Positions 1-4,052 of a stretch of DNA of 9,775 nucleotides are shown in pieces. Numbering within the stretch: position 1 is the stretch's first letter; the number at the start of each line of letters is the position of its first letter. Location of the stretch: positions 1 to 9,775 of the forward strand of contig JACDAH010000246.1 in NCBI GenBank assembly GCA_013695505.1, in the 5' to 3' direction. The DNA comes from Chloroflexota bacterium. GTDB taxonomy: Bacteria; Chloroflexota; Limnocylindria; Limnocylindrales; CSP1-4. The translations under genes and the position numbers were made by a program. The notes under the pieces were generated by a model. That model searched no databases. It saw only the letters and a program-made list of their open reading frames with translations, and was not told where the DNA came from.

Positions 1-1377
1 ATCCTCGAGCTGGGCGAGGGCGTCTTCGAGGTCAAGGCGACCAACGGCGACACGCACCTCGGCGGCGACGACTTCGACCAGCGCGTCATCGAATGGCTGC
101 TCGCGGAGTTCAAGAAGGACCAGGGGATCGACCTCTCGAAGGATCCCCAGGCGCTCCAGCGGCTCAAAGAGGCGGCCGAGAAGGCGAAGATCGAGCTCAG
201 CTCGACGTCCTCGACCGAGATCAACCTGCCCTACGTCACCGCCGACGCGTCCGGGCCGAAGCACCTCGTCGTGACTCTGACCCGGGCCAAGCTCGAGGAT
301 CTCGTCCGCGACCTCGTCGAGAAGACGCGCAAGCCGGTCGAGGCCGCGCTCAAGGACGCCGGGCTCAAGGCCGGCGACATCGACGAGGTCATTCTCGTCG
401 GCGGCATGACCCGGATGCCCGCCGTCGTCGAGGCCGTCAAGGCGATGTTCGGGGGCAAGGAGCCGCACAAGGGCGTCAACCCGGACGAGGTCGTCGGCAT
501 CGGTGCCGCGATCCAGGCCGGCGTGCTGGCGGGTGACGTCAAGGACGTCCTCCTGCTCGATGTCACGCCGCTGTCGCTCGGGATCGAGACGCTCGGTGGC
601 GTCATGACCAAGCTGATCGACCGCAACACGACGATCCCGACGTCGAAGTCGCAGGTCTTCTCGACGGCCTCGGACAACCAGGGCCAGGTCGAGATCCACG
701 TCCTCCAGGGCGAGCGCGAGTTCGCGGCCGACAACAAGACTCTCGGGCGGTTCATCCTCGACGGGATCCCTCCGGCGCCGCGCGGGGTGCCCCAGGTCGA
801 GGTGACGTTCGACATCGACGCGAACGGCATCCTCGACGTCAAGGCCAAGGACCGGGCGACCTCGAAGGAGCAGCAGGTCCGGATCACCGCGTCCTCGATG
901 CTCTCGAAGGACGATGTCGACAAGATGGTCCGCGAGGCGTCCGAGCATGCCGATGAGGACAAGCAGCGCCGCGAGGAGGTCGAGATCCGCAACCAGGCGG
1001 AGCAGCTGACCTACCAGGCGGAGCGGGTCCTCAAGGATCTCGGCGACAAGGTGTCGTCGGAGGACAAGGCGGCCGTCGAAACCCAGGTGTCGTCACTCCG
1101 TGACGCGCTCAAGGGCTCCGACATCGGGGCGATCACGTCCGGCGCGACGGCGCTTGGCGAGACGCTCAACAAGGTCTCGACCGCGGCCTATCAGGCGGCC
1201 GCGGCTGAGGACTCGGCCAACGGCTCCGGCGACGGTGAAGGTGCCGGCGCCGAGGGAGAGGGCGGAGGCCCGGGCGCAGACGGTGAGCCCGAGGCTGAGC
1301 CGGCCGGCGCCCGTGCCGGCGGCGGGTCGTCGGACTCATCGGACGATACGGTCGAGGGTGAGTTCAAGGAGGTCTGA
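1..1377 (+). CDS. dnaK: Molecular chaperone DnaK (Hsp70), 3' part; start lies outside the window
   Basis: Frame 1 is open from the first base to the TGA at 1375-1377 and gives 458 residues of a protein normally a little over 600 long, so about the first third is missing. DnaK is the cytoplasmic Hsp70 chaperone: ATP binding and hydrolysis in the N-terminal domain control peptide binding in the C-terminal domain. Visible parts are the late nucleotide-binding domain ([11 protein letters not shown] near residue 20, then VGGMTRMP at about 133-140), the interdomain linker running into [14 protein letters not shown] (from residue 187), the beta substrate-binding domain (about 190-300), the helical lid (about 305-390) and a Gly/Glu/Ser-rich disordered tail ending EGEFKEV. 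A small oddity is ITASSML where the family usually has ITASSGL. No grpE or dnaJ follows; the next gene is convergent. The identification is secure. Confidence 0.97.
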
Positions 1378-1515: not shown

Positions 1516-1533
1516 TGGACCCGGGCGCGCGTC

Positions 1534-1688
1534 CTGACAGGCGAATCTCTGCCGGTCGTTAGCGAGACCGGTCGCGACACTCGACCGCCTGGCGATCGCC
1601 TGTCAGGAGCTCGGGCCGGATCCACGCTCACTGGTCAGGCGGCGGCGGCGGACGCGCTGCCTTGCGACCGCCTGAGTGTCGCCTGACA
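1534..1688. repeat. 155-bp dispersed repeat element, copy A
   Basis: This segment aligns without gaps to 2409-2563 at an offset of 875 bp. By eye the first 72 bp match at 63 positions and the last 35 bp at 30; the middle is much less alike. It contains three versions of one 24-bp module with ends CGACCGCCTG and TCGCCTGTCA. One is inverted (1534-1558, starting CTGACAGGCGA), and two are direct (1582-1605 and 1665-1688). The inverted copy and first direct copy could fold into an imperfect hairpin with 11 bp and 6 bp paired at the two ends, around a 23-nt loop containing the palindrome GACCGGTC. It lies at the 3' end of the HTH-nuclease gene and supplies that gene's stop codon. No transposase-like gene is attached. 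Confidence 0.85.
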
Positions 1689-2343
1689 AAAACCACAGGC
1701 CGCGCAGCGGCCGTCGTCGGTGCGGAGCGGCAAGCCAGCGCCGCACCTCTCGGGCGCGGTCCGGGAACGCGTTTCCGAACGTTGCCGCATGCGCCTCAAT
1801 CCGGCGCCGGGCGGTGCGATCGTCCTTGATCACGAGCAACCGCCAGATCGCGACCGCATCCCAGCCGCGTCCGCGACCGATCTGTGGCGAGAGGCGCTCC
1901 TTTCGATCCAGCGTCACAAGCGTGGCCTGGACGTCCGGTACGACCGACTTCACCTCGACCACGAGCAGCACTCGCGTCGCCGGATGGAAGGCCAGGATAT
2001 CGATCGAGCCGCGCTCGCCGAAGATGTTGAACGAGACCTCCGTCGCGACGAGCCAGCCGCCCCGTTGGAGGATCCCGACGAGCTGCTCGACGATGGCGGC
2101 ATGGGCAGCGTCGAGCAGCCGGCCGAGCTCCTCGCCGTTCCATGACAGGCGGCAAGTCACCCGTGCACCGAGAGCGCCGGCGACCTTGTCCAGCGTCTGG
2201 ACGGTGACCTTGCTCGCATGACCCTGCTCGATCCGCGCAACCACACCGCGAGACACCTTCGCTTCTCGCGCGAGCTCGTCCTGGGTCCAACTCTTGCGGA
2301 TCCGCAGCGCCTTCAGACCTCGGCCGAACCCGACATCGTCCAT
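1603..2343 (-). CDS. XRE-family HTH protein fused to a PD-(D/E)XK nuclease-like domain
   Basis: From the ATG at 2343 this encodes 246 residues. An XRE-type HTH spans about residues 8-60 (TQDELAREAKVSRGVVARIE at 20-39). A second domain at about 75-205 has the order expected of a PD-(D/E)XK fold: a Glu in ATEVSFN (E102), GSIDILAFHP (D115) and LLVVEVKS (E130, K132), then helices and a final strand GLWFL. Related HTH-plus-nuclease-fold proteins are familiar from high-GC bacteria but I know of no established function; DNA binding and cleavage are inferred. An in-frame ATG at 2391 would add 16 residues; I prefer 2343 because MDDVGFGRGLKALR is a typical family start, though neither has a clear ribosome binding site. 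The last 27 residues (S220 on, starting SGDTQAVARQ) are Arg-rich and encoded by repeat element A, so the original C-terminus was probably just after GLWFL. Repeats flank both sides of the gene. Confidence 0.88.
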   Translation of the reverse strand: MDDVGFGRGLKALRIRKSWTQDELAREAKVSRGVVARIEQGHASKVTVQTLDKVAGALGARVTCRLSWNGEELGRLLDAAHAAIVEQLVGILQRGGWLVATEVSFNIFGERGSIDILAFHPATRVLLVVEVKSVVPDVQATLVTLDRKERLSPQIGRGRGWDAVAIWRLLVIKDDRTARRRIEAHAATFGNAFPDRAREVRRWLAAPHRRRPLRGLWFLSGDTQAVARQRVRRRRLTSERGSGPSS

Positions 2344-2375
2344 CCCGAGAGCATGAACCCAGGCGATGCACCGGC

Positions 2376-2382
2376 AGTTATC
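2376..2382 (-). promoter_or_regulatory. Possible -10 hexamer for the HTH-nuclease gene
   Basis: On the minus strand the sequence GATAACT stands 32 nt upstream of the preferred ATG at 2343. It is one of the few AT-richer spots nearby. No good -35 box is visible at the normal distance. If it is real, the transcript would start near 2369 and exclude the alternative ATG at 2391. This is weak support only. Confidence 0.2.
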
Positions 2383-2408
2383 AACGATCATCTGGTGATC
2401 GGCCAGAT

Positions 2409-2563
2409 CTGACCGGCGAATCTCAGCAGGTCGTTAGCGGGACCCGTCCTGACGCTCGACCGCCTGGCGATCGCTTGTCAAAGGTTGCTGCGCTGTTCAC
2501 GCGTGGGGTCCGCGGCGCGGCGGGGGAGGCGTTGCCTGGCGACCGCCTGAGGATCGCGTGACA
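2409..2563. repeat. 155-bp dispersed repeat element, copy B
   Basis: Same orientation and length as copy A at 1534-1688. The inverted module is at 2409-2433 (CTGACCGGCGA...), and the direct modules at 2457-2480 and 2540-2563. Spacings from inverted to first direct module (48 bp) and first to second direct module (83 bp) equal those of copy A exactly, although the sequence between the two direct modules has diverged strongly. It sits between the start of the HTH-nuclease gene and the stop of the membrane-protein gene at 2617. In copy B the equivalent minus-strand frame (DPQAVARQR) is also open but belongs to no gene. Confidence 0.85.
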
Positions 2564-2616
2564 CAAAGTTGCACGCGAGAGCGGCCGCGGTGGCGAGGGC
2601 GGCCCCGGCGGCGGCA

Positions 2617-3486
2617 CTACGGCGCCGAACTGACAGGCGGACTGGCGCGCATCTGCTCGAGCACGTCGGCGAGGGACAAGTTCGGGACGAACTCGGTCGT
2701 GACTCGCGGCCCGTCGATCGGCCACAGCTGCCACGCCTGGAGAACGCCAACGAGGCCGTTCCGTGGCGAGTCGTCGCCGACGAAGACCAAATACCGGTCG
2801 CCGATGGCGATGTCATCCATGAAGCCGCCCATCAAGTACCGCTGACACCCGATCGTGCCGCCCGGAATCCAGATCGTGATCACCGGCGCGACGGGGACGC
2901 CGCGGATCGTCTCCTCGACCTCGATCCGGATCAGACGAATGACGTCCGCCGCCTCGGACCGTTCCGGTCTCGTGACGGGCGCCCGTCCGCCGGGCGTGTT
3001 CCACTGCGCGGCTCCGACGCCGGTCACTCGCCCGACGACGACCGTTTGCGAATTCGCGGCATCCTCGGCCGGTGTCGTGACCATCCGGTCGTAGGTCGTC
3101 ATGCGCGTGAGGCACGGCGGTGGCAGCTCTTCCGGCGGCTCGGCCGGATCGAGCGGCACGATCGCAACGGGCTCGACGGGCCCCGACGCGGGCCCGGGCG
3201 CGGAAGCGGGCGGTGGCTTGACGGCGACGCCCGAGGCGTCAGGCGAGCCAGCGATCGACCCATCGCCCGCGGGCCGGCTTGCAACCGGCGCAGGAAATCC
3301 GAGACGCCCGCCGAGCATGATCCCGCCGACGACCATCACCGCGACCATGACCCCGAGAGCAGCGGCGAAGGCCGGTCCGATCGGCCGTCGGCGGGCGACG
3401 TCACGCGGCCGGTCGGCAACGAACGGCTCGATCCGGGCGAAGCGAACCGCGAACCGGCCGAAGGTCTCGTCGTCGCGGTCGGTCAT
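2617..3486 (-). CDS. Single-pass membrane protein paired with the ECF sigma factor
   Basis: This encodes 289 residues. A cytoplasmic, charged N-terminus (1-36) is followed by one transmembrane segment at about 37-60, a Pro/Ala/Ser-rich linker (about 65-125), and a beta-rich outer domain (about 145-285: VVVGRVTGV, IRIEVEETIRG, ITIWIPGG, DRYLVFVGDD). Cys125 and Cys214 could form a disulfide outside the membrane. Its ATG (3484-3486) overlaps the sigma-factor stop as ATGA, and GGAG stands 8 nt upstream. That coupling suggests an anti-sigma or signal-sensing role, but the HxxxCxxC motif of zinc anti-sigma factors is absent and I recognise no named domain. The N-terminal 36 residues are the only part available to contact a cytoplasmic sigma factor. 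It could instead be a target co-expressed with the sigma factor. Confidence 0.82.
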   Translation of the reverse strand: MTDRDDETFGRFAVRFARIEPFVADRPRDVARRRPIGPAFAAALGVMVAVMVVGGIMLGGRLGFPAPVASRPAGDGSIAGSPDASGVAVKPPPASAPGPASGPVEPVAIVPLDPAEPPEELPPPCLTRMTTYDRMVTTPAEDAANSQTVVVGRVTGVGAAQWNTPGGRAPVTRPERSEAADVIRLIRIEVEETIRGVPVAPVITIWIPGGTIGCQRYLMGGFMDDIAIGDRYLVFVGDDSPRNGLVGVLQAWQLWPIDGPRVTTEFVPNLSLADVLEQMRASPPVSSAP

Positions 3487-3986
3487 CGCAGCAGCTCCGG
3501 GTGATGGCGGAGGACCTCGAGGGCGCGCGCGACGAGTGAGCGGACCCCGGATTCGGAGAGGCCCATGATCGTTGCAATGTCGGCGTCGGTGAGGTCGCGC
3601 TGGTAGCGCAGGACAAGCACCTCACGCTGGCGGTCGGTCAACGCCCTGGCCACGGCACCGAACCAGAGCCAGAACTCCGTCCCGGCCTCGCCCGCGTCAG
3701 ATCGGACCGGGCGCGATGGTCCGAGCGCCAGACGAGCCAGACGCCGGGCGCGACGCCAGCGGTCGGTCGCGATCCGGCGGGCGGTCAGGAGCAGCCATGG
3801 CAGCGCTGGCTCGGGTACGCGATCCCACGCCCGGAGCGCCCGCTCGAAGGTCTCGGCCGCGATCTCGTCAGCGTCGGCGGGGGATGCAGTCAGCCCGAGC
3901 AGGTAGCGATGGACATCCCGGAAGTGGTCCGCGTAGACGCGCTCGATATCGACGAGACGCGGCCGCACGGCCATCCGCACGGGCAT
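3483..3986 (-). CDS. ECF-type RNA polymerase sigma factor (sigma-70 family)
   Basis: This encodes 167 residues, a usual size for an ECF sigma factor. Sigma region 2 spans about 17-82 (VYADHFRDVHRYLLGL, DEIAAETFERALRAW, PWLLLTARRIATDRWRR) and binds the -10 element and core polymerase. Region 4 spans about 107-160 (ALTDRQREVLVLRYQRDLTD, then the HTH IATIMGLSESGVRSLVARAL) and reads the -35 element. Regions 1.1 and 3 are absent, as expected of this class. The ATG at 3986 is chosen because GAGGGA (3996-4001) lies 9 nt upstream. A GTG at 4034 would add 16 acidic residues. The gene overlaps the next, a membrane protein, by 4 bp, the typical pairing of a sigma factor with its regulator. The regulon cannot be read from this window. 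Confidence 0.93.
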   Translation of the reverse strand: MPVRMAVRPRLVDIERVYADHFRDVHRYLLGLTASPADADEIAAETFERALRAWDRVPEPALPWLLLTARRIATDRWRRARRLARLALGPSRPVRSDAGEAGTEFWLWFGAVARALTDRQREVLVLRYQRDLTDADIATIMGLSESGVRSLVARALEVLRHHPELLR

Positions 3987-3995
3987 GACAAGTGG

Positions 3996-4001
3996 TCCCT
4001 C
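3996..4001 (-). promoter_or_regulatory. Ribosome binding site deciding the sigma-factor start
   Basis: GAGGGA on the minus strand, 9 nt before the ATG at 3984-3986. It favours the shorter sigma-factor form over the GTG start at 4034. Confidence 0.55.
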
Positions 4002-4052
4002 GTCTTCGTCCGGACCCGCCATCAGCTGGTACACACCCCAACAACGAACGAG

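Follow-up and report, generated by a model that had tools for sequence, protein, structure and literature searches.

Inverted arm pairs at the 3' ends of helix-turn-helix nuclease genes of Chloroflexota, and their probable recognition by the encoded proteins

When two similar repeats are found next to a gene, do they belong to it, or does a repeat of the genome merely happen to lie there? The question is raised by a contig of Chloroflexota bacterium (JACDAH010000246.1, assembly GCA_013695505.1; 9,775 nucleotides, referred to here as the window), in which two repeat elements, A and B, accompany a gene coding for a helix-turn-helix (HTH) domain and a predicted nuclease domain. The evidence reported below assigns element A to the gene itself, and suggests that the short inverted sites of which it is made, called arms, are bound by the gene's own product.

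The initial annotation had described two co-linear 155-bp repeats, offset by 875 bp with no insertions or deletions, whose centre has diverged at conserved length, and the description holds. A (1534-1688) and B (2409-2563), compared without gaps at that offset, are identical at 116 of 155 positions; the identities counted by eye at the left end (63/72) and at the right end (30/35) were exactly reproduced, and the centre retains 23/48. The next-best 155-mer in the window scores 68 on the same strand and 88 as reverse complement. By BLAST within the parental genome (G000, an incomplete assembly, 60.8% complete, in 549 contigs) A and B align at 77% over 159 bp, with E 3.9e-26, and two further copies are detected, at C473:3100-3253 (78%) and C410:96-249 (76%). 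A chance repeat is ruled out by this E value, together with the scores of the other 155-mers of the window. In all four copies the starts of the outer arms are spaced 128 nt, a length that stays fixed despite the diverged centre, as expected from the constraint on spacing that had been proposed. The arms extend beyond the limits first noted, reaching about 1531-1692 and 2406-2567. The features concerned are given here in window coordinates, residues being numbered from the ATG at 2391.

1531..1692, no strand assigned: element A, the gene's own 3' element (BLAST, arm mapping, ungapped comparison)
1659..1692, minus strand: arm A.R (arm 1), in the last codons of the gene, from the Phe codon of GLWF; dyad centre 1673
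1576..1609, minus strand: arm A.M, an extra middle arm; dyad centre 1590
1531..1564, plus strand: arm A.L (arm 2), inverted relative to A.R; dyad centre 1550, 123 bp from the A.R dyad
2406..2567, no strand assigned: element B, second copy, upstream of the gene and oriented like A; arms 2406-2439 (plus), 2451-2484 (minus) and 2534-2567 (minus)
1603..2391, minus strand: HTH-nuclease open reading frame (ORF), 262 aa from the ATG at 2391
2167..2316, minus strand: HTH_3 DNA-binding domain, residues 26-75 (Pfam E 7e-10, 39.2 bits; predicted local distance difference test score, pLDDT, of the model about 97-99)
2227..2250, minus strand: recognition helix, residues 48-55 (covariation with arm bases; helix 32-39 of the 246-aa form in the model)
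2248-2250 and 2233-2235, minus strand: codons of residue 48 (Arg) and residue 53 (Arg)
1696..2142, minus strand: PD-(D/E)XK-type nuclease domain (domain model pLDDT 95, fold matches)
2038-2040, 1999-2001, 1954-1956 and 1948-1950, minus strand: codons of the putative catalytic residues E118, D131, E146 and K148 (conservation)

Read in the sense of the gene, A opens with the Phe codon within GLWFLS, the motif of the protein's last strand, and continues past the stop codon. By its position in the sequence A is no bystander but the 3' end of the HTH-nuclease gene itself, overlapping its last codons. The earlier picture of a gene bracketed by two copies stands in so far as both are present here; A overlaps the gene, however, and a copy like B is an extra in the family, as reported below.

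The HTH_3 domain, well above the Pfam cut-off of 23 bits, resembles HipB, HigA and the controller proteins of restriction-modification (R-M) systems. A start at 2343 (246 aa) fits many homologues and the codon model. Pfam detects only HTH families on the protein: in the window no named nuclease family is reached by the second domain (HSDR_N_2 12.3 bits vs a cut-off of 25, YhcG_C 12.1 vs 32.5), and the best match of other family members has E 0.001 (UPF0102). The structure model of this domain nevertheless matches PD-(D/E)XK-type structures and contains the catalytic E/D...E-x-K arrangement, and E118, D131, E146 and K148 are invariant in 75 of 75 non-redundant homologues. The product is thus predicted to have a PD-(D/E)XK-type fold beside its HTH, the combination initially assigned to the gene between the copies. 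At E <= 0.001 2,765 homologues are found; within the best 120, the names given are either XRE/HTH regulator or hypothetical protein.

When the 3' ends were read across the family, many were seen to carry an inverted pair starting from the same codon, in different letters. A first gene set was taken from the protein matches listed, in which 106 loci with a located gene gave 94 distinct C-termini, 86 of them with a usable 3' end. A held-out set came from an independent scan of GTDB genomes, with 80 loci, 50 of them outside the first set and 45 of these with a full 3' end. Non-redundant sets, in which proteins are less than 60% identical, contain 75 (first), 29 (held-out) and 104 (combined) members. 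For each gene, the 45 nt of arm 1, anchored at the Phe codon, were compared with the reverse complement of bases 75-320 downstream, and the downstream DNA of other genes was used as control; this anchored, gapped test replaced ungapped inverted-repeat scans with shuffles. Over the 86 genes the mean score is 12.9 for a gene's own arm, against 8.24 (standard deviation 1.59) for the flanks of others. Scores of 12 or more are reached by 41 genes (2.3 expected) and of 14 or more by 32 (0.42 expected), and 24 of the 45 held-out loci score 12 or more (1.5 expected). Background stretches rarely reach 14, both within genes (1.6% of 258) and 400 nt further downstream (1.3% of 79). An upstream copy of the own arm, comparable to B and within 500 nt, scores 14 or more in 8 of 83 genes, against 0.57 expected. 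On this comparison of sequences, the 3' copy belongs to the gene across the family, and an upstream copy such as B is an extra.

Each arm consists of a left flank with consensus TTCCTGTCA, four bases, a spacer of seven bases, four bases complementary to the first ones, and a TTAGGC-like flank. In arm 1 the four pairs are Watson-Crick in 53, 45, 50 and 51 of 86 cases, against 28.9, 27.6, 27.5 and 26.5 expected, and in arm 2 in 28, 28, 21 and 28 of 41, against 12.4-14.4. Since the pair types vary, the pairing represents covariation and not the conservation of a single sequence. Among 540 pairs of arm 1, G.T mismatches (37) are not above A.C mismatches (44), which fits a duplex site rather than a hairpin in a transcript. 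In the six arms of the window two or three of the four pairs are Watson-Crick, so that the window copy is a weaker example than many.

The bases of the arm were then related to the residues of the protein, in 3,584 tests on the 75 proteins, with residues 237-243, which are themselves encoded by the arm, set aside. Beyond these, the strongest associations link residue 48 to base 26 (z 11.0) and to base 12 (z 10.3), and residue 53 to base 15 (z 6.0); all other residue-base pairs have z of at most 5.2. The outer pair is G.C in 18 or T.C in 8 of 31 proteins with Arg48 and A.T in 20 of 31 with Gln48, while the inner pair is C.G in 21 of 36 with Arg53 and A.T in 10 of 18 with Leu53. In the 29 held-out proteins the association of residue 48 with base 26 recurs (z 9.8; Arg48 with G.C in 8/10, Gln48 with A.T in 9/14), and in the combined set of 104 it rises to z 17.1, along with 12.2 for the other association of residue 48 and 7.2 for residue 53. 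Arm 2, which lies downstream of the matched codons, behaves in the same way, Arg48 occurring with C26 in 18 of 20 cases and Gln48 with T26 in 14 of 14. On a tree built from the nuclease domain only, 20 independent Arg/Gln contrasts were available: at base 26, 14 are concordant, one is reversed and five are uninformative, and at base 12 seven are concordant and one is reversed. In the structure model, residue 48 opens the recognition helix and residue 53 takes its sixth position; we regard them as the counterparts of Gln28 and Gln33 in the 434 repressor, residues that touch the outer and the inner bases of its half-site.

Syntenic pairs point in the same direction. Two loci, L046 and L168, share one location, their flanks being 81% and 88% identical and their proteins 58%; the two proteins differ at residue 53 (Arg or Asp), as do the inner pairs of their arms (C.G or G.C). 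The syntenic pairs examined imply that the gene was inherited in place, while specificity and arms changed together.

The spacing between the arms was analysed only in genes scoring 12 or more (64 genes, 50 of them non-redundant). In the 64 genes the dyads lie 84 to 259 bp apart, and their distances cluster near a helical repeat, with R 0.55 at 10.75 bp, a value reached in 0 of 2000 jitter nulls; the 50 non-redundant genes give R 0.54 at the same period (0/2000 nulls), and at other score cut-offs p is up to 0.0025. A control on sister pairs, with 26 non-zero spacing differences, yields a mean cosine of 0.37 (p 0.0086), and when only the 40 distinct spacings are used phasing has p 0.004. Twelve independent copies in two sister species, G007 and G049, fall into four distance classes, of about 144, 164, 175 and 204, for which R is 0.87. 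On these figures the arms are likely to be helically phased, and looping of the duplex DNA between phased arms would likewise be likely.

Copies of the element are also found away from the gene. Eight genomes were searched with a cognate element. The DNA searches scored at most 40 candidates per genome when single genomes were searched and at most 20 per genome across relatives, so that counts are lower bounds. Six genomes contain such copies: at least 2 in G000, 2 in G003, 5 in G005, 11 in G007, 7 in G049 and 2 in G018 (both on C118). In G044 and G002 none was found among the candidates scored, at most 40 in each. Both arms are present at 16 of 18 sites in G007 and G049. The arm start-to-start distance hardly varies within three of the genomes, being 151-153 in G005, 139-140 in G003 and 128 in G000, next to the four classes of G007 and G049. 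Out of at least 29 copies, 25 were examined, and every one overlaps the genes called by a simple codon model by no more than 30 nt; their neighbours are in tandem for 14, convergent for five, divergent for four and undetermined for two. Copies similar over the full length occur on C118 of G018 (88-90%) and C10 of G005 (83%). The former shares about 600 bp with the gene copy, and since some 390 bp of this lie beyond the element, that duplication did not concern the element alone.

A comparison of empty and filled sites, proposed at the outset, revealed a nearly empty counterpart for one site of G005, and shared sites in G007 and G049. At the former, 408 nt separate the flanks in G005, as opposed to 21 nt in G047. 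Another site, compared between G000 and G002, is ambiguous, with 607 vs 335 nt and then 55 vs 145 nt between flanking matches. Finally, L263 (G007) and L266 (G049) match at 81% over 420 nt only, with flanking genes that are unlike, and perhaps represent a moved or duplicated copy. As far as sites can be compared by sequence, many copies are old and stable, and gain or loss is rare.

The sequences themselves document arm 1 within the last codons, the self-matching of the arms, the 4+7+4 palindrome, the covariation, the invariant catalytic residues and the dispersed copies. From this evidence, recognition by the protein of the 3' arms of its own gene can be regarded as close to established. In the mechanism proposed, dimers of the protein would bind the palindromic sites at the 3' end of their own gene, and the double-stranded DNA between the two arms would be looped by the bound protein. 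Cleavage, predicted because the putative active site is invariant, would take place at or beside the conserved TTCCTGTCA and TTAGGC-like flanks, and a short element would be released or copied, giving rise to B and to the other copies. Gene and 3' element would thus form a self-tagged unit, similar to RAYT and REPIN, with an unrelated nuclease and acting on duplex DNA. The reading as a whole, a self-matched 3' arm pair bound, looped and likely cut by its own HTH-nuclease, is probable in our judgement, with room for doubt. Dispersed arm pairs are likely bound by the same protein and perhaps spread by it; mobilisation by the protein is plausible, although we would not yet call it probable. Slightly more tentative still is the proposal that these genes form a new class of self-tagged mobile gene, in which an HTH-PD-(D/E)XK nuclease would synapse, on duplex DNA, an inverted pair of phased operators in its own last codons, cut, and copy a miniature element, as an analogue of REPIN-RAYT systems that arose independently out of a restriction-type nuclease, with a specificity predictable from two residues.

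Several observations weigh against this reading. More than half of the genes of the first set (45 of 86) score below 12. Among the 164 pairs of arm 2, G.T mismatches (14) slightly exceed A.C mismatches (9). The top association in the held-out proteins is that of residue 51 with base 14 (z 10.6), which lies outside the top 14 of the combined scan, and in the latter base 12 is correlated with two further residues, 129 (z 7.2) and 155 (z 6.7), perhaps as a phylogenetic echo. In its strictest tests phasing loses significance: p is 0.15 with the spacings merged to 20 classes, and 0.20 in G007 and G049 with the classes shifted as blocks, where phasing taken alone proves little. As to movement, the G005 site compared with G047 contains the last 48 or so codons of a gene copy and could be a decayed gene. 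Seven of the 11 sites of G007 were compared with its sister species G049; for six of them the syntenic position in G049 holds one arm or both, and recent movement is therefore not seen there. Copy numbers are low, and by eye no target-site duplication was recognised.

Among other explanations, autoregulation deserves most attention. HTH dimers might loop the 3' arms in order to limit their own transcription, for instance through a roadblock placed within the coding region; the nuclease would then have another target, and the dispersed pairs would be decayed or minor operators. The location of arm 1 within the coding region, the likeness of the HTH to HipB, HigA and R-M controller proteins and the phased spacing, which also fits repressor loops, would all suit it, and a precedent comes from a study reporting a controller protein that serves as a roadblock to elongation within the gene encoding it (PMC6237814). 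Own-arm matches upstream of the gene are nevertheless limited to the 8 of 83 genes mentioned, the 25 copies examined, by the orientation of their neighbours, have no clear promoter preference, and the catalytic residues are invariant; autoregulation is therefore considered rather unlikely. Less likely again is a nuclease of restriction or defence type, whose arms would be control sites that restrain the protein or mark self DNA. No methyltransferase was recognised on reading the ORFs of the window, three of which were scanned with Pfam, no search aimed at methyltransferases being made; no relative is found among the matches in viral contigs; and recurrent pairs of chromosomal targets would be unexpected for an enzyme that spares self DNA.

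The arms might also act as a folded nucleic acid, either single-stranded DNA (ssDNA) or RNA in the manner of REP and RAYT, or a guide-like RNA at the end of the ORF, in the manner of TnpB. Element A does fold better than shuffled sequences, as ssDNA (z -3.3, 0/200) and more weakly as RNA (z -2.3, 4/200), its layout resembles that of REPINs, and the excess of G.T in arm 2 goes in the direction expected of a hairpin. The mismatches of arm 1 show no such excess, the bases follow the residues of the recognition helix (Arg with G, Gln with A), the spacing appears phased near the helical repeat, and in the window between 1350 and 2700 no Rfam match comes near threshold. The best one, with E 1.8, is far below its gathering score, and a known RNA family was rejected for this region. 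The sequence data accordingly disfavour a hairpin of RNA or ssDNA as the main signal, and its probability is put quite low. Lowest of all is that of an insertion, next to the gene, of a miniature element belonging to another transposase, with both having drifted since. The inverted ends, similar to terminal inverted repeats, the copies elsewhere and the existence of a few copies similar over their full length would be in keeping with such an origin. Against it, the position of the arm is fixed at one codon across diverged proteins, and the arm pairs stay matched while their letters change, the bases tracking the helix of this very protein; by this residue-base covariation a miniature element is already contradicted. 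Binding and looping of the 3' arms by the HTH-nuclease of the same gene remains the preferred reading.

The surroundings of the gene also bear on its link with the element. It lies downstream of one further feature, named by reading its translation:

1..1377, plus strand: 3' part of dnaK

Between dnaK and element A, at 1411-1533, the window contains several imperfect repeats of the type GCGCGTCTCGGGC..CGGACCCGG. At ten loci, including the window, a family member is found directly downstream of dnaK, as recognised by the motif at the dnaK end; these dnaK-linked genes encode Arg48, Gln48 or Ala48 and have different half-sites, across genera. In a congener, G001, the order is dnaK, one element, the HTH gene and a UbiA-like gene (dnaK and UbiA by reading translations). 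In G001 neither B nor any part of the sigma-factor pair lies in between, and the UbiA-like gene follows 73 nt after the HTH gene. The corresponding part of the window, 2406-4034, between the HTH gene and the UbiA-like gene, holds B, a gene without Pfam match (2617-3486) and a sigma-factor gene of the extracytoplasmic function type (3483-4034). The HTH gene of G001 (L038:4846-5543, on C21) reads in two frames, through either a sequencing error or decay of the gene, and several other homologues likewise have internal stops or split frames. The second family member of the window's own genome (L050:2027-2400, on C475) is followed by repeated stretches of the GGTTGGTATCCGGTCG type and, at an arm-pair score of 8.9, shows no clear pair. 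In G049 (L020:1-120, on C59) tandem copies of a 23-mer (GGCAAGGCATCGGCGGGACCTCC) are located just past the element.

Protein matches were obtained in 36 of 61 genomes searched, the own one included, and 34 of the 36 have two or more, some of which are pieces of a split gene. The element of the window, used as a query, matches at E <= 0.001 in three of 41 genomes, namely G000, G001 and, over 21 bp, G023. Both G000 and G001 carry the dnaK-linked gene, and as other genomes with such a gene have different arm letters, the element tracks the version of the gene to which it belongs. The link between repeat and HTH-nuclease family, advanced as a hypothesis in the initial annotation, gains from this distribution, and the outcome named there as refuting it, many copies not enriched near the family or presence where the family is lacking, was not observed; its simpler alternative, a genome-wide repeat that merely flanks the gene, is not borne out. 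A pattern scan of GTDB genomes gave at least 593 matching stretches, at least 185 of which encode relatives, and 80 were kept. All have names in Chloroflexi, Chloroflexota or Limnocylindrales, except for one Anaerolinea, which also belongs to Chloroflexota, and one Steroidobacteraceae. The contig with the latter label (L204, JAICUY010000024.1) may reflect either contamination of a metagenome-assembled genome or transfer between phyla. In viral contigs a pattern scan gave 31 matches, with no relative among them, and a phage origin was rejected on this ground.

A clearly self-matched 3' pair is carried by about half of the 131 genes tested (86 and 45). Should this hold for the remaining homologues, proteins filed as regulators would likely be nucleases with recognition sites in their own genes. 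The matched protein-DNA pairs would also form a natural catalogue, from which a recognition code for HTH_3 helices may be derived (G for Arg48 and A for Gln48, with the inner base following residue 53). Searches of open-licence papers brought up no description of the arrangement, as judged by titles and the beginnings of abstracts, which does not prove its absence.

The 434-type phage repressors, HipB, HigA and R-M controllers are HTH_3 proteins too; they are not known to contain a nuclease domain, and their sites of action are promoters or operators. XisH (the fdxN excision controlling factor), EndoMS/NucS, the R2 restriction-like endonuclease and Hjc are 13-17% identical to the nuclease of the family, a level that implies a shared fold and not a shared function, and to our knowledge none of them has a fused HTH or a cognate 3' element. 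In TnpB systems the omegaRNA guide element overlaps the 3' end of the ORF of a RuvC-like nuclease; a functional element over the 3' end of a nuclease ORF is thus a common trait, while here the main signal is at the level of DNA. Sites of SfiI and of Type IIB enzymes are not known to form an obligate pair inside the enzyme's own gene. The bridging of two sites before cutting is described for these two-site restriction enzymes (PMC2082129, PMC1892151).

The closest likeness is that to REPIN-RAYT systems (REPtron, TnpA_REP). A RAYT gene is accompanied by short palindromes of its own, which form inverted doublets both next to the gene and elsewhere in the genome, and it coevolves with them (PMC3116915; PMC8266576). 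The loose analogy with REP sequences and RAYT proteins drawn at the outset survives to this extent: here too, a gene is found with its own palindromes as inverted doublets, nearby and elsewhere, evolving together, with both arms retained at most of the G007 and G049 sites and all 25 copies intergenic within the overlap given. The two differ in that RAYTs are HUH/Y1 transposases acting on folded ssDNA of REP sequences, while the present proteins join an HTH to a PD-(D/E)XK domain; in that arm 1 here lies inside the coding region and most signals point to duplex DNA; and in the number of copies, of which 2-11 were found away from the gene in each of the six positive genomes. The family is not filed as REPIN-RAYT, because two defining features that were tested, a HUH Y1 transposase and a high copy number, were not found. 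It would rather provide a second, independent case for the long-standing question of the origin and persistence of REP-like palindromes in bacterial genomes, and one in which the question is directly testable, since the site is known and so is its likely reader.
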